Positions 57,686 to 64,000 of a DNA stretch of 64,000 nt are shown in pieces. The notes below the pieces were generated by a model. That model worked only from the letters and a program-made list of their open reading frames with translations, was not told the origin of the DNA and made no database searches. A program made the position numbers and the translations under genes. Positions within the stretch are counted from its first letter, which is position 1, and the number at the start of each line of letters is the position of its first letter. Source of the DNA: Actinomycetales bacterium (GTDB lineage Bacteria; Actinomycetota; Actinomycetes; Actinomycetales; Cellulomonadaceae); contig JAHLLI010000001.1 in the NCBI GenBank assembly GCA_020444245.1, positions 62,001 through 126,000 on the forward strand. The letters are read 5' to 3'.

Positions 57686-58277
57686 TGATCTGCCTCCGTC
57701 CTTCGAAAGCGCGTCCGAGGGTGACCTCGTCGGCGTACTCCAGGTCGCCGCCCACCGGCAGGCCCGAGGCCAGCCGGGTGACGCGCAGGCCCATCGGCAC
57801 CAGCAGCCGGGCCAGGTAGGTGGCCGTCGCCTCGCCCTCGACGTTCGGGTCCGTCGCGAGGATGACCTCGGTGACCGAGCCGTCGGCGAGCCGGGTCATG
57901 AGCTGGGAGATGCGCAGGTCGTCCGGACCGACGTTGTCGATCGGGTTGATGGCGCCGCCGAGCACGTGGTACCGGCCGCGGAACTCGCGGGTGCGCTCGA
58001 TCGCGACGACGTCCTTGGGCTCCTCGACCACGCAGATCACGGTGTCCGAACGGCGGGGGTCGCGGCACACCCGGCAGCGCGGCTCCTCGGCGACGTTGCC
58101 GCACACCTCGCAGAACCGGACCCGGGCCTTGACCTCGACGAGTGCGTCGGTGAGGCGGCGGACGTCGGCGGGATCGGCCGCGAGCAGGTAGAAGGCGATC
58201 CGCTGCGCGCTCTTGGGACCGACGCCGGGCAGTCGCCCGAGCTCGTCGATCAGGTCCTGGACCGCGCCCTCGTACAC
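57678..58277 (-). CDS. recR: recombination protein RecR
   Basis: A 199-residue clamp-like repair protein that works with RecF/RecO. The helix-hairpin-helix [16 protein letters not shown]-type start ([17 protein letters not shown]) is followed by a four-Cys zinc finger ([16 protein letters not shown]) and a Toprim domain with [17 protein letters not shown] 58277 is set by TAGGCT six bases upstream, so recR has its own start site and does not rely on dnaX, from which it is separated by four genes. Confidence 0.96.
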
Positions 58278-58283
58278 ACGATC

Positions 58284-58289
58284 AGCCTA
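58284..58289 (-). promoter_or_regulatory. -10 element of recR-DUF5063
   Basis: Minus-strand TAGGCT ends six bases before GTG 58277. Confidence 0.65.
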
Positions 58290-58388
58290 CGGGGTGCGCA
58301 GCGACGGAGTGAGCGAGGCCGCGCGGCCGGGGCCAACCCGCACAGGGGTCACGTCGACCCGGCTCGTACGGGTCGGCCGACGCCGGGC

Positions 58389-59498
58389 TCAGGGGCGCTC
58401 GCCACGACCCTCGCTGAGGATCTCGAACCATGCCTCTGGCGCCCCGTGCGGCGCGGTGGCGAGCACTGTGCCATGGCGGTCGAGCACCGCCCAGCTGGCG
58501 GGCGGCAAGCCCGGGTCGACCGCTCGCACGACATGGGTCGCGGCCACCGGGTCGTAGGTCCACCGGAGGTCGGGCAGCCACTGGCCCGAGGCATCGACAG
58601 CCGGCCAGCCGAGGAGCACGACGATCGCGGCGGGATCCTCGAGCGCCCGCCGGACCTGGTTCCACGCGGCAGCCCTCCGGTGTCGCTCCACCCGCGCCCC
58701 AGGCTCCTTCAGGGCCAGCGCGGCGAGCAGACGCGGGTCGCTGCGGCGATGCCCGAAGGCGCGCGCCCAGACAACTCCCGTCACGATCCCTGCGGCGCCG
58801 GCGATCGACGCGGCGATGCGCAGCCCGGATGGGACCGCGGCGTCTCCGAGAAGGGCCAGCGCAGATGCCAGGCCCACGGCCGTGAGGAGCCACACGCCGG
58901 GGTGGTTGCGGTCCGTCCTGAGCGTGTTCAGCGCGACCGCTCCACCACCGAACAGCACGACGGCGGAGAACTCGCCCAACGGGTGCTGGTCCGGGACCGG
59001 GACCTGCACGGCGGCGACAGCGAGCAGGACGGCAGCGAGCGCGGCCAGTGCCAGCGCTACAACGCTCGCGAACGTCTCCCGCCACGGCGGCGGCAGCTGC
59101 GGCGGGCCGAGGGCCTCGGTAGCCAGCGGGTCGGGTAGCTCTCGCGGGCCACCCCCGAACGGGTCGAGGTCCACCTCTGACGACGTCGACCCGTCGCCCG
59201 GGTCGGCGTGCGCGTCCGACGTCGACCGCCGTTCGGCCGCGGGCCTCGCGGCATCGGGGTCGTTCCCCCATGCCACGTCGTCCCACGACGGGCCCACGCC
59301 GTCCAGCTCGCGGTGGTAGGCGTCACGCAGCTCGGGATCGGACAGCACCCGGTGCGCCTCCTGCACCGCCAGGAAGCGCTCGACCGTGCCGCCGCGATCC
59401 GGGTGCGCCGCCCTGGCAGCCCGGCGGTATGCGCGGCGCACCTGCTCGGCGCTCGCCGGACGAGCGACCCCGAGGGTGGCGTAGTGGTCCGGTGTCAC
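58389..59498 (-). CDS. membrane J-domain protein, paralogue 2
   Basis: A 369-residue protein. A J-domain occupies residues 3-65 with the HPD motif (RAAHPDRGGTVERF). An acidic linker with DLDPFGGGP follows, then four hydrophobic helices (about 140-255) and a C-terminal domain of about 100 residues that begins VERHRRAAAWNQVRRALEDP and ends with SWAVLDRHGTVLATAPHG. The HPD predicts recruitment of DnaK to the membrane. The same layout and C-terminal domain occur in the gene at 60294-61346. GTG 59498 overlaps the upstream stop in a GTGA. Confidence 0.8.
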   Translation of the reverse strand: MTPDHYATLGVARPASAEQVRRAYRRAARAAHPDRGGTVERFLAVQEAHRVLSDPELRDAYHRELDGVGPSWDDVAWGNDPDAARPAAERRSTSDAHADPGDGSTSSEVDLDPFGGGPRELPDPLATEALGPPQLPPPWRETFASVVALALAALAAVLLAVAAVQVPVPDQHPLGEFSAVVLFGGGAVALNTLRTDRNHPGVWLLTAVGLASALALLGDAAVPSGLRIAASIAGAAGIVTGVVWARAFGHRRSDPRLLAALALKEPGARVERHRRAAAWNQVRRALEDPAAIVVLLGWPAVDASGQWLPDLRWTYDPVAATHVVRAVDPGLPPASWAVLDRHGTVLATAPHGAPEAWFEILSEGRGERP

Positions 59499-60301
59499 GA
59501 CGACTCGAGCCGGACGACGGCGCTCCCGTCCGGCCACGTCGGAGCTGCTGCGAGATCGAAGCCGACCTGCTCGACGATCCAGGGAGCTCGGGCCATCTGT
59601 CCCCGCAGGTGGTCCAGGCTTCCGGTGACCGTCGACGGCAGCGACCGTGTCGCGATCACGGTGAGCGCACGAGTCTGCGACACCAGCAAGCAGCGCACGG
59701 CCTGCCCAGAGGGCTTCCCATCGCGCGTCGAGGTCTGCTCGAGCCCGCCGAGCCACACGACAGGATCAGGGATGAGCGCCTCAGCGGCCGTACGCACCTC
59801 GGCGGGCAGGTACCGCCATGCCTCGGCGGCGTCCGCGTGGTGGGTGGGGCCGGGACGGGCCGGGCGCCTGCCGGGCCGATCGAGCTCGTCGGCCACCGTG
59901 ACCACGCCCCGACGTCGGTGCACCGCGCCCGAGGCCTCCGCGTGCCGCGCCCACCGGTGCTGCCAGGGCCCGGCGGGCACGACGCGATCGCCGGCGGCCG
60001 GCCGGACGGGACGGGAGGCCTCGACGATCACGACGCCGTCCTCGTGGAGCCGCCAGCCGATGGCCACCTCCACCGCGTGGCCACCGTCGGTGCGGTGGCG
60101 TCCGTCGGAGCGCACCGACTCCGCGACCACGGGGCCCGCGCGACGGGCCGCGCGGTGCGTAGCACGCGGCAGGTCTGCCCAGGTGAGGAGCTGACTGTCG
60201 AAGCTGACCTGCTCGGTGCTCGCCGCCGGGGACGAGCGCTGGGCCACCTCCCGTGCGGTAGTACGTACCAGCGCACCCGCGCGACGGATCAGCTCACCCA
60301 C
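59495..60301 (-). CDS. protein of unknown function within the J-domain cluster
   Basis: A 268-residue soluble protein that I do not recognise. It has no signal or membrane helix and two Trp-rich stretches (TWADLPRATHRAARR; VAIGWRLHEDGVVIVEASRP; GPWQHRWARHA), ending with a part that may be a small alpha-beta domain (RALTVIATRSLPSTV). GTG 60301 overlaps the preceding stop by eight bases, and its own stop overlaps the next start by four, so it is made together with the two J-domain proteins. Confidence 0.7.
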   Translation of the reverse strand: MGELIRRAGALVRTTAREVAQRSSPAASTEQVSFDSQLLTWADLPRATHRAARRAGPVVAESVRSDGRHRTDGGHAVEVAIGWRLHEDGVVIVEASRPVRPAAGDRVVPAGPWQHRWARHAEASGAVHRRRGVVTVADELDRPGRRPARPGPTHHADAAEAWRYLPAEVRTAAEALIPDPVVWLGGLEQTSTRDGKPSGQAVRCLLVSQTRALTVIATRSLPSTVTGSLDHLRGQMARAPWIVEQVGFDLAAAPTWPDGSAVVRLESS

Positions 60302-61346
60302 GACGACCTCCAGCCATCACCTTGCGCCACGACTTCATGGCTGCCGGCGGCGCCACCACCACCACTCGCCCGCGAGCGTCGAGCACCAGCCACGAGCCGA
60401 GCGGGTACTCGTCGGCAAGCACGCGCAGCACGGCGCGCCCGGTCCTCGGGTCGGACAGCAGCCAGCGGCCCGCGCCCTCGTGCACGGCCGGTGCCTCCAC
60501 CCGTTCCAGGTGCGTACCCGGCACCAGGAGAGCGTCCCGCAACCTGTTCCACTCCCCGGCGAGCCTGTGCCGCTCGACCAACCCCCCGACCCTGCCCGCG
60601 GGACGCGCCGACCTCGGGCGTCCGGGGCGACGGCGGCGACCGAGGACGAACGCCACAGCCGAGCAACCGAGGGCTGCGGCCACCAGGATCACCACGTCGT
60701 CGGGGCCCAGCCCGTCCTGGCGGGCGCCGACCACGAGCGTCCCGCACATCACGACCGCGGCACCCACCCAGGGCACCACCCCCGGCGCCCCGAACGCCCG
60801 GCCGACGAGCACACCCACACCGGTGAAGAAGACCAGCGCCGCGACCACGGCGTAGGCCGCACCACTCACCCGGGCTCCGGCCACGAGGCCCGTCACGACC
60901 ACGACGCCGGTCGAGGTCGCCGCGGTGAGCACGAGCTGGCGGTCAGTGACACTCGGCAGGAAGCCCCGTGGCTCCGTCCCGAGGTCGAGCGGAGGCAACG
61001 GGACCGCTCCGGGCTCGAACGGGTCGACGGTCCGAGCCGGGCCGTCGGTCGGCGGCACCGACGAGCTCGCGGCGTCGTCGTCCGAGGCGCCCCAGTCCGC
61101 GCCTGCCCAGTCATTGGCGCCGGTCGCGTCGTAGCCGGCGCGCCGCTCCGGGTCGCCCAGCAGGCTCCACGCGCGCTGGACTGCGTGGAACTCCTCGGCC
61201 GAGCCACCGGAGTCCGGGTGTGCGGCCCTGACCGCTGCCCGGTACGCGCGGGCGATCGCTTGCGGGTCGGCGTCGCGTGGGACGCCGAGGACGACGTAGG
61301 GGTCCGGCTCGCCGGCCGCGTCGGATGAGGCAGGTCCCTGAGTCAC
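60294..61346 (-). CDS. membrane J-domain protein, paralogue 1
   Basis: A 350-residue protein with a J-domain at residues 16-75 (YVVLGVPRDADPQAIARAYR, HPD in AAHPDSGGSAEEF). A linker with TVDPFEPG follows, then four or five hydrophobic helices (about 130-245) and a C-terminal domain starting VERHRLAGEWNRLRDALL and ending SWLVLDARGRVVVVAPP. It shares this order and the ERHR..WN..R.AL pattern with the gene at 58389-59498, which marks a duplication. GTG 61346 lies 16 bases past the upstream stop. Confidence 0.8.
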   Translation of the reverse strand: MTQGPASSDAAGEPDPYVVLGVPRDADPQAIARAYRAAVRAAHPDSGGSAEEFHAVQRAWSLLGDPERRAGYDATGANDWAGADWGASDDDAASSSVPPTDGPARTVDPFEPGAVPLPPLDLGTEPRGFLPSVTDRQLVLTAATSTGVVVVTGLVAGARVSGAAYAVVAALVFFTGVGVLVGRAFGAPGVVPWVGAAVVMCGTLVVGARQDGLGPDDVVILVAAALGCSAVAFVLGRRRRPGRPRSARPAGRVGGLVERHRLAGEWNRLRDALLVPGTHLERVEAPAVHEGAGRWLLSDPRTGRAVLRVLADEYPLGSWLVLDARGRVVVVAPPAAMKSWRKVMAGGRRG

Positions 61347-61362
61347 GATGACGTCCAGGCGC

Positions 61363-62154
61363 CTACGGCTGCACGGTGGCGGAGACCGTCGAGGTGACGA
61401 TGGGATCCGCGTGCCAGGGGTCGCTCGCGGTGTGCCCGGTGGGGGTGGTGAGCTCGACGGTCCATACCGGCCGGGCGCCGTCGGGGACTTTCTGGGCGTA
61501 GACCAGCTCGACCTGGTGCAGGCCAGCAGGCTGGTCGGCACGCCAGGCCGCGGACGTCTCGTCCTCACCGAGCAGTCGCACTCCGTAGCCACGGCAGGCC
61601 GACGCCGTCGCCACGTGGTCGCGCGCCCCGACCGTCGCCGGCAGCGTCAGCACCGCGTCGCACCCGGCCGCCGACACGAAGGTCCTCGTCGCGCCGTGCA
61701 CGTTCGAGATCGCGGCAGTGTCCGAGGCGACCTTGACCTGCACGGGGGCGGGCAACCGAGCCATCCCGTCGACGTGCGTCCAGCTGGTCACCACGTGCAC
61801 GACGTAGTAGTCGCCGATCGGGTCGGCGTCGTCCAGACGGCCGACCCACGCGTCCACGGTGACCGTGCCGCTCGCGGGACTCATCGGCCAGGCCGCGGGC
61901 CCGCTCCACGCCGCCTGCAGCACATCCTCCTGGAAGTGCCCGGGCACCTCCTGCGTGCTTGTCGCGGGCGGCACGGTCGGGTCGCTGGGCCGGGCGGCCG
62001 CGCCGGACTGGCCCCACGGAACCCACCCACTGACCCGAAGCGGCGTGGTGAGCACGGCGAGCAGGGCGACGCCCACGACGAAGGAGGCGTACCACCGCCA
62101 CGGCCGACCGGTCGCGGGGACGGCGGGCCCGGGCGTCTGCGTCGCGGTCACCAC
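61363..62154 (-). CDS. membrane-anchored extracytoplasmic protein of unknown function
   Basis: A 263-residue protein, first of the four-gene cluster. One transmembrane helix (about residues 22-40) is preceded by a short cytoplasmic end; the outside part has two cysteines (AAGCDAVL and ASACRGYG) that could form a disulphide, and many beta-type stretches. No family is recognised. GTG 62154 or the next codon, GTG 62151, is the start; neither has a clear Shine-Dalgarno. Confidence 0.65.
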   Translation of the reverse strand: MVTATQTPGPAVPATGRPWRWYASFVVGVALLAVLTTPLRVSGWVPWGQSGAAARPSDPTVPPATSTQEVPGHFQEDVLQAAWSGPAAWPMSPASGTVTVDAWVGRLDDADPIGDYYVVHVVTSWTHVDGMARLPAPVQVKVASDTAAISNVHGATRTFVSAAGCDAVLTLPATVGARDHVATASACRGYGVRLLGEDETSAAWRADQPAGLHQVELVYAQKVPDGARPVWTVELTTPTGHTASDPWHADPIVTSTVSATVQP

Positions 62155-62330
62155 CCCGCGCCCGACACGTCACCGGACGACGACACCACTCGACCGAGCA
62201 CCACCCTGATCCCCCTGCTCCCATCGCGCCCGAGGGCACGACGCCTCCCCCACCGGTGCGCCGATCATGGACCCACGACGCGGTCAGGACAAGGGCTCTT
62301 GGACCCGTCGCGGGGCCACATCACGTCGGC

Positions 62331-64000
62331 CTACTGCGGCTCGTCCGGGATCTCGTCGATCACCGTGCCGCCCAGCATCTGCGCGATGAGCGGCGCGCCG
62401 ACCAGGCCCGACCCGACGAGCTCGGGGTCGTCGGGGCTGGCGTCGCTGCCGTCGTTCGGCGCGGGTGCCGGCCCGGCCGGGCGGCTCGGGCTCTGGCGGT
62501 GTGGGGGCGCTGGGCGGGTGCGCGGCTGCGTCGCCGCGGGTGCCGTGGGCGAGCCCCTGCCCTGGTCCGGCCGGGCAGCGGACTGCCGCGCGGGTGCCGG
62601 CCCGGGCTCGGGTGGTTCGGGCTCCTCGTCGGGCTCCGGCGCGTCAGGCACGCCATCGGAGGCCAGAGGCGGTCCGGCGGCGGGCCGGGCCTCGGCGGCA
62701 CGGCGCGGAGGGGTGCTGCTGCTGCGGCCGGGCGCACCCGCGGACGCGCCCGGGGTGTCGGACGAACCGGACGCCGGGGCCGACCTCTGGGGCCGGTCGG
62801 ACGCGGCGGCCTGACCCGGGCGAGCGGGAGCGCCCCACGAGGCCTCGGCCTGCTCACGCGTCGGCGTGCCCGGCGCGCCCGCGGCGCGGGGGGCGGGCTC
62901 ACCGCCGCTGGGGGCCAGCACGGGCTCGACGCGGACGTCCAGGCCGAGGGTCTCGTGCAGGGCGCGGCGGACGTGCTCGGCGTGCGGCCCGGTGCGGAAC
63001 GTCTGGGCCAGCTGCGGGGTGGTGAACGCGAGCCGGACCACGCCGGCCTCGATCGAGGCCACCTGGGCGTTCTGGCTGACCAGCGCCCAGGACGCCATCT
63101 TCAGACCGCGCAGGGTCTGGAGCACCTCGGGCCACCGGCGACGGACCATCTCCGCCTCGGCGGCGGGTGGTGCGGCGGCGGACGACACTGCGGCAGGTGG
63201 CGCCTCGGGTTCGGGAGCGCGCGCCGCGGCGGCGGGAGGTGCCGAGGGCTGCGCGGCGGCCGGCGGCTCGGAAGCAGGCGCCCTCGGCGCGGGCGGTGCG
63301 GGCTCCGGCGCCTTCGGCGCGGGCGCCTCACGGTCGGGCGCGGACGGCCGCGTCGCGGAGGCCACCGGCGCCGCCGGCTCGGGGGCGCGCGACTCCGGCA
63401 CGGGCGTGGGTGCGGCGGGCGGCTCGGGTGCAGCAGCCGCGGGAGCAGCCGCCGCGGACGTCTCCTGCACAGGCGCCGCCTGCGGCCCTGGGGCAACCCT
63501 CGGCCCGCCCTCGACCGCCCGCTCCACGCGCTCGAGCCGCGCGACCACGCCGCCGCCGTCCACCGCGGGCAGCAGCAGCCGCGCGACCAGCAGCTCCAGG
63601 TGCAGCCGGGGCGAGGTCGCCCCGGTCATCTCGGTGAGCGCGGTGTTGACCAGGTCTGCCGAGCGGGACAGCTCCGCCGGACCGAGCGCGGCGGCCTGGG
63701 CCCGCATCCGCTCGAGCTGGTCGGACGGCAGGTCCCGCAGCGCGGCGCGCGCGGACTCCCCCGACGCGGCGATGACGATGAGGTCGCGCAGTCGCTCGAG
63801 CAGGTCCTCGATGAACCGGCGCGGCTCGTGCCCGGACGAGATCACCCGGTCGACCACCCGGAACGCACTCGCGCCGTCCCGCGTGGAGATAGCGCCCACC
63901 ACGTCGTCGAGCAGCGCGGCGTGGGTGTAGCCGAGCAGGGCGACCGCCCGCTCGTAGTCCAGGCCGCCCTCGTCCGCCCCGGCGATGAGCTGGTCGAGCA
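62331..64000 (-). CDS. dnaX: DNA polymerase III tau/gamma subunit, C-terminal part (cut by right edge)
   Basis: The visible 556 codons begin within domain II/III of the clamp-loader subunit: LDYERAVALLGYTHAALLDD, then the domain III collar (FIEDLLERLRDLIV, ALTEMTGATSPRLHLELLVA). A long Pro/Ala-rich linker follows (about 170 residues), then a folded tau-like domain (MVRRRWPEVLQTLRGLK, QVASIEAGVVRLAF, HVRRALHETLGLDVRVEPVL), a second Pro/Arg-rich tail and the end GAPLIAQMLGGTVIDE. The ATPase lies outside the window. recR is normally close by in bacteria; here four genes intervene. Confidence 0.93.
   Translation of the reverse strand, partial: LDQLIAGADEGGLDYERAVALLGYTHAALLDDVVGAISTRDGASAFRVVDRVISSGHEPRRFIEDLLERLRDLIVIAASGESARAALRDLPSDQLERMRAQAAALGPAELSRSADLVNTALTEMTGATSPRLHLELLVARLLLPAVDGGGVVARLERVERAVEGGPRVAPGPQAAPVQETSAAAAPAAAAPEPPAAPTPVPESRAPEPAAPVASATRPSAPDREAPAPKAPEPAPPAPRAPASEPPAAAQPSAPPAAAARAPEPEAPPAAVSSAAAPPAAEAEMVRRRWPEVLQTLRGLKMASWALVSQNAQVASIEAGVVRLAFTTPQLAQTFRTGPHAEHVRRALHETLGLDVRVEPVLAPSGGEPAPRAAGAPGTPTREQAEASWGAPARPGQAAASDRPQRSAPASGSSDTPGASAGAPGRSSSTPPRRAAEARPAAGPPLASDGVPDAPEPDEEPEPPEPGPAPARQSAARPDQGRGSPTAPAATQPRTRPAPPHRQSPSRPAGPAPAPNDGSDASPDDPELVGSGLVGAPLIAQMLGGTVIDEIPDEPQ

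Follow-up and report, generated by a model that had tools for sequence, protein, structure and literature searches.

A membrane J-domain protein and an adjoining partner of no described family form a conserved pair in actinobacteria

We analysed a 64,000-nucleotide stretch of DNA (the window) from Actinomycetales bacterium, a member of the Cellulomonadaceae (assembly GCA_020444245.1, contig JAHLLI010000001.1, positions 62,001 to 126,000 of the forward strand). There, dnaX ends at 62331 and recR starts at 58277, and the interval between them contains four minus-strand genes, termed A, J1, B and J2 in this order. Sequence comparison identified B, paired with a J-domain membrane protein encoded next to it, as the conserved unit, with B and J diverging together. 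We consider it probable, with some reserve, that J1, B and J2 constitute a module dedicated to targeting DnaK to the cytoplasmic membrane.

A total of 26 B loci were examined, comprising that of the window as well as L015–L020, L036–L046, L096, L097 and L135–L140. At 24 of them a J-domain membrane protein, detected with our own J profile, adjoins B, and all ten of these proteins that were run against the Pfam DnaJ model scored over its cut-off. At L020 the contig border truncates the start of the partner; over 415 residues lying beyond the J domain of the L019 J partner, the two proteins share 49% identity. The partner at L016 (genome G001) is J1-like, having kept its helices and tail and lost the J domain, with no J remnant in the three forward frames upstream. 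The HPD motif is retained in all 26 J proteins at these loci, the window and L042 having two each. L042 (9832-11515), with two tandem J-domain membrane proteins at one B, is the second such case besides the window.

At nine other loci of the window's family, J lies behind B in the same orientation, mostly with a short overlap suggesting coupled translation; the exceptions are a 31-base gap at L015 and a distance of about 320 bases at L140. Same-strand and convergent arrangements were both found in f38, the actinobacterial family of loci L036–L046, L096 and L097. The distances among B proteins correlated with those among the accompanying J domains (r 0.79 for 24 pairs, none of 2000 permutations as high), a value uncorrected for shared species history, and likewise for the pairs outside f38 (r 0.68, 11 pairs, 0/2000 permutations). 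For the rest of the J protein the corresponding values were 0.78 (0/2000) and, outside f38, 0.67 (1/2000). Besides two actinobacterial families, the pair occurs in two genomes that represent two more families of the same order as the window.

Both J1 and J2 scored over the Pfam DnaJ cut-off of 27.8 bits (3.5e-14, 53.1 bits and 3.5e-15, 56.3 bits, respectively) with the HPD motif intact, and together with two higher-scoring loci elsewhere they make up the four J-domain loci of the window genome. Hydropathy analysis yielded four helices each and a positively charged stretch after the last one, and therefore the J domain and the tail are both predicted to be cytosolic. Pfam detected no second DnaJ domain, in line with class C, and the NCBIfam DnaJ equivalogs matched far under cut-off and within the J region only. 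By their domain content J1 and J2 are class C J-domain proteins, for which stimulation of an Hsp70 ATPase is a prediction. DjlA of Escherichia coli is a membrane-anchored class C J protein; J1 and J2 scored 14.8 and 19.1 bits with its NCBIfam model PRK09430 (cut-off 162), and 12.3 and 25.5 bits with the cold-adaptation J protein model NF050028 (ActJ; cut-off 150).

The presence of HPD in both J proteins and of a common C-terminal domain, as put forward by the original prediction from the sequence of this stretch, was confirmed by Pfam and by an alignment of five tails with the invariant columns R, A, W-N, G, W, D, G, A-P, A and W. This shared tail is real, but typical of only part of the J family, since other J partners of B exhibit more helices instead, or a nuclease-related (NERD) domain. 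The protein at L019 (10264-11805), adjoining B in a genome of the window's taxonomic order, comprises a J domain, several helices and NERD, both domains over the Pfam cut-off; a contig-cut homologue adjoins the B gene at L020 (2-1195). Searching the PDB with the tail profile gave nothing, or matches with E 0.3 or worse. The tail was detected in 7 of 200 genomes of the window's family (two weak), and weak matches in G784 and G817 were dropped. We presume that the searches for A, B and the tail covered the same 200 genomes; only the best few candidates per genome were scored, and absences are soft. In a tree of nine tails, support was 97/96 for J2 grouping with the J protein of Actinotalea fermentans and 90/90 for J1 grouping with the J-less protein of G001; the J1/J2 duplication therefore seems to predate the split of these Actinotalea species.

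Neither A nor B of the window matched a family in Pfam, NCBIfam or PADLOC. For 13 B members run against Pfam, NCBIfam and PHROGs we obtained weak single-member matches only, none of them convincing (best values 3.8e-4 for NCBIfam, 0.0048 for Pfam DUF5897 and 0.1 for a PHROG), and B profiles retrieved no related solved structure from the PDB, with nothing or E 0.3 or worse. The two halves of B align almost end to end with a local score of 27.6, compared to at most 15.8 in 200 column shuffles, suggesting that B is probably a tandem duplication whose copies each begin with a W..LP..VR-like motif and end with a PW.V-like one. The B members of f38 are true relatives (hhalign 99%), and a relationship of B to the YbjN protein adjoining it in f38 was rejected at an hhalign probability of 0.2%. 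Depending on the search, B was matched in 4 of 59 genomes, 8 of 297 (three weak ones included), 12 and 14 of 394, and 11 of the 200 family genomes. Weak matches in G231, G116 and G070 (E 2.9e-4 to 5e-4) were dropped; no J-B set was seen at these, and two of the three appeared GntR-regulator-like by eye. As to mobile carriers, two scans of IMG/VR with B alignments returned no relative, and none was found in PLSDB by tblastn, for which only the L017 and L019 B proteins served as queries; the carrier search did not extend to a phage collection.

As the J proteins keep HPD, we infer that they recruit DnaK. In the proposed module the J domain would stimulate the DnaK ATPase at the membrane and B would dock onto the J protein from the cytosolic side, with either B or the J tail selecting the client, or B itself being the client. 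DnaK would then remodel one specific membrane-bound assembly, and at type IV secretion-like or FtsK-type loci the client would most likely be that machine or its cargo. This retains, from the membrane complex recruiting DnaK that had been predicted for the four genes, the membrane J proteins, the partner of an undescribed family and the putative recruitment, and abandons the four-gene complex with an outside sensor.

Judged by analogy, AtcJ of Shewanella oneidensis together with AtcC and AtcB is the nearest tested analogue in mechanism. In the part of that report considered here, AtcC binds AtcJ through a region other than the J domain, a contact that the authors propose to link DnaK to AtcC/AtcB (PMC6715715). 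As with J and B, a class C J protein is encoded in an operon with undescribed partners; however, AtcJ is short with a 21-residue extension, compared to the four helices of J1 and J2, and the same portion of the report identifies no membrane segment in AtcA, AtcB or AtcC (PMC6715715). The likeness of AtcC to B is one of description, not of a direct comparison of the two proteins. DjlB and DjlC of E. coli are membrane-attached class C J proteins thought to bring HscC to the plasma membrane (PMC8215388). They are tail-anchored, whereas J1 and J2 have an amino-terminal J domain, several helices and, as is often the case, a C-terminal domain, and a B-like partner is not mentioned in the section of the account used here (PMC8215388).

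A link to DNA-transfer genes emerged in two settings. In 14 of the 22 genomes of f38 a VirB4-like gene lies in a chromosomal type IV secretion-like cluster, and B-J sits inside this cluster in 13 of the 14, which are not 13 independent events because the cluster genomes belong to two genera; in the fourteenth (G411) the contig ends within the cluster. B had no match in the eight f38 genomes without VirB4, presumed to be among the 394 genomes searched. At L036 the cluster encodes TcpC, VirB4-type AAA, CHAP and FtsK-type proteins over the Pfam cut-offs, and a YbjN protein was present at all three f38 loci tested. The remaining 13 VirB4-like proteins are 86-97% identical to that of G451; the VirB4 frame carries a stop in G541 and is split over two frames in G487. 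TcpC, TcpF/VirB4 and TcpA form the Tcp/Tn916-type grouping of Gram-positive type IV secretion, which the f38 clusters housing B-J resemble in their TcpC, VirB4-type, CHAP and FtsK-type proteins. In G036, B-J is part of a series of overlapping genes that also encodes membrane proteins and an FtsK/SpoIIIE protein, the latter weakly similar to plasmid TraB, with a DUF3854 protein nearby, and the series may represent a mobile element. Near the pair at L140 (G723), a small membrane protein gave a sub-threshold match to DUF6112.

The boldest reading of these settings, to which we give a low probability, is that B-J is an Hsp70-targeting module for membrane DNA-translocation machines, its solitary copies, as in Actinotalea, acting in trans on or against incoming elements; a role of the pair in DNA transfer as such is given about the same low probability. 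DnaK would be brought to conjugative channels of the type IV secretion and TraB/FtsK types, assembling or opening them or unfolding their protein cargo.

Several observations weigh against a DnaK-targeting pair or against its link to transfer machines. The G001 partner has lost its J domain, and DnaK recruitment would therefore not be indispensable there. Shared species history may contribute to the B/J distance correlation, and the hhalign probability for the internal duplication of B is only 21%. The cluster-bearing f38 genomes represent two of six genera. Transfer genes were sought by eye in the window, L015 and L016, and by BLAST with the transfer proteins of f38 and pXCEL01, which had no match at seven other loci of the window's family (G096, G723, G738, G756, G768, G792 and G822) or at L019. 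A VirB4 query that worked on the control G451 found nothing in G000 (the window genome), G001, G008, G014, G036, G096, G211 and G217. B and J are absent from the 30 kb read in three plasmids with related VirB4 genes, and B from the 6 kb read around the second VirB4 of G397. The likeness to the Tcp/Tn916 type is limited by three related plasmid clusters without B-J in the part read and by a window genome in which no VirB4-type gene was found.

We further characterized the dnaX-recR slot across 19 genomes of the genus Actinotalea; a contig end interrupts it in G014, a genome that also carries B, and recR had no match in G005. In the 16 other genomes with both ends visible, the slot is empty or nearly so (under about 350 bases) in eight (L066, L067, L069, L073, L074, L076, L077, L078) and holds varied cargo in the other eight (L016, L065, L068, L070, L071, L072, L075, L080). 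Across the genus the slot, spanning 58278-62330 in the window, serves as a site of variable cargo. It had been expected to hold dnaX-ybaB-recR as a rule; no ybaB-like gene was seen in the 16 slots by eye on predicted genes, with no YbaB profile run. In G001 (L016) the J1-like protein precedes a B 37% identical to that of the window, without A, and in G008 (L065), another Actinotalea, A stands alone at 55% identity. Across the same genomes identities amount to 92-93% for RecR, 93-95% for LysC, 83-89% for DUF5063 and 61-65% for the C-terminal part of dnaX. By this comparison A and B are fast-changing but not alone in this, because that part of dnaX is also poorly conserved.

Such a pattern could also be left by a conflict system in which B is constant and the J tails are interchangeable, acting on incoming DNA or rival elements with DnaK as energy source or trigger. 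The patchy presence of B in the family, the varying J tails (C-terminal domain, extra helices, NERD in one J protein), the fast change of A and B, qualified by that of dnaX, the variable cargo slot and the links to transfer machines all fit this explanation, as does a gene adjoining the B-J pair at L138 (8015-9250) that matches the PADLOC candidate defence family PDC-S01. However, PADLOC matched none of the four window proteins nor six B/J proteins of other loci, the similarity of the L017 FtsK protein to the SspH and mad8 models is no higher than any FtsK-type motor might show, and the commonest J tail is devoid of a recognised catalytic motif. We therefore regard a conflict system as unlikely.

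It is more improbable again that the genes are left-over cargo of a former mobile element, drifting without function in the variable slot of Actinotalea. The third-position GC signal of the four genes is weaker than that of recR, the partner in G001 is J-less, and the B genes of the same slot are of low identity, as drift would predict. In contrast, none of the four frames is interrupted, the genes still overlap, both J proteins retain HPD and the conserved residues of the tail, and the J1/J2 duplication seems to have preceded the divergence of these species.

Protein A belongs to a separate family and is probably a neighbour rather than a subunit, outside the conserved unit. A was detected in 6 of the 200 family genomes (one weak) and coincides with B in the window genome only; four others (loci of G008 and L090–L092) contain A without a visible B or J beside it, and ten contain B without A. 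A weak match in G795, with a stop in its frame, was dropped. The A-like proteins at L090–L092 are small and secreted or anchored. At L091 (9044-10437) and L092 (9346-10583) the gene for the A-like secreted protein runs into a small lipoprotein-like gene that overlaps it; the small proteins of the two loci are alike by eye, so that elsewhere A may have its own partner. In the PDB, A retrieved nothing, or matches with E 0.3 or worse. A lack of co-occurrence of the four genes in other genomes, named in the original prediction as counting against it, applies to the quartet and not to the B-J pair. One membrane complex of A, J1, B and J2, with A as outside sensor or client binder, is accordingly very improbable and the quartet was rejected as a unit: the tight gene order and the single slot common to A and J1-B-J2 speak for it, but A stands alone in the same slot of G008, its homologues at L090–L092 adjoin neither B nor J, the two meet in one of 200 genomes, and the G001 slot holds a B set without A.

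The layout of the four genes agreed with what had been described beforehand, with a gap of 16 bases between A and J1 and overlaps of 8 bases between J1 and B and 4 bases between B and J2 (Table 1). Hydropathy also bore out an anchored A, a soluble B and multi-helix J proteins, giving one amino-terminal helix, none, and four each, respectively. Since homologues of all four genes occur in other genomes, the frames are not due to chance. Genes were predicted with a simple third-position GC method, and several that it missed were then read from all open reading frames.

Table 1 Features of the dnaX-recR interval in window coordinates.
Feature	Position	Strand	Description	Basis
Gene A	61363..62154	-	263 residues; one N-terminal membrane helix, outside domain, cysteines 165 and 187	
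A membrane helix	62038..62088	-	Residues 23-39	Hydropathy
Gene J1	60294..61346	-	350 residues; J domain, linker, four helices, C-terminal domain	
J1 DnaJ domain	61128..61304	-	Residues 15-73, with HPD	Pfam
J1 membrane part	60645..60932	-	Four helices, residues 139-234, then Arg-rich stretch; tail predicted cytosolic	Hydropathy
J1 C-terminal domain	60297..60644	-	Common to J1 and J2	Alignment
Gene B	59495..60301	-	268 residues; predicted soluble, outside described families; core partner of J proteins	
B module, copy 1	59882..60190	-	Residues 38-140, probable duplicated module	Half-against-half comparison
B module, copy 2	59528..59833	-	Residues 157-258, probable duplicated module	Half-against-half comparison
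Gene J2	58389..59498	-	369 residues; layout as J1; directly behind B, as in nine other family loci	
J2 DnaJ domain	59316..59489	-	Residues 4-61, with HPD	Pfam
J2 membrane part	58767..59063	-	Four helices, residues 146-244	Hydropathy
J2 C-terminal domain	58392..58766	-		Alignment

The literature, judged from titles and abstract openings, gave no account of such a pair, in agreement with the earlier view that the system is undescribed, and the main text of a paper on actinobacterial integrative and conjugative elements contains neither 'DnaJ' nor 'J-domain' (PMC3218068). The pair combines a partner without a convincing entry in the family libraries with two separate settings beside DNA-transfer-type genes in actinobacteria. 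Dedicated J proteins determine where in a cell Hsp70 acts, and to our knowledge few bacterial ones with a partner of their own have been reported. The B-J pair offers a small testable system of two proteins, one known chaperone and one candidate machine, and, should the low-probability DNA-transfer reading be true, it would add a chaperone-driven step to DNA transfer in actinobacteria.

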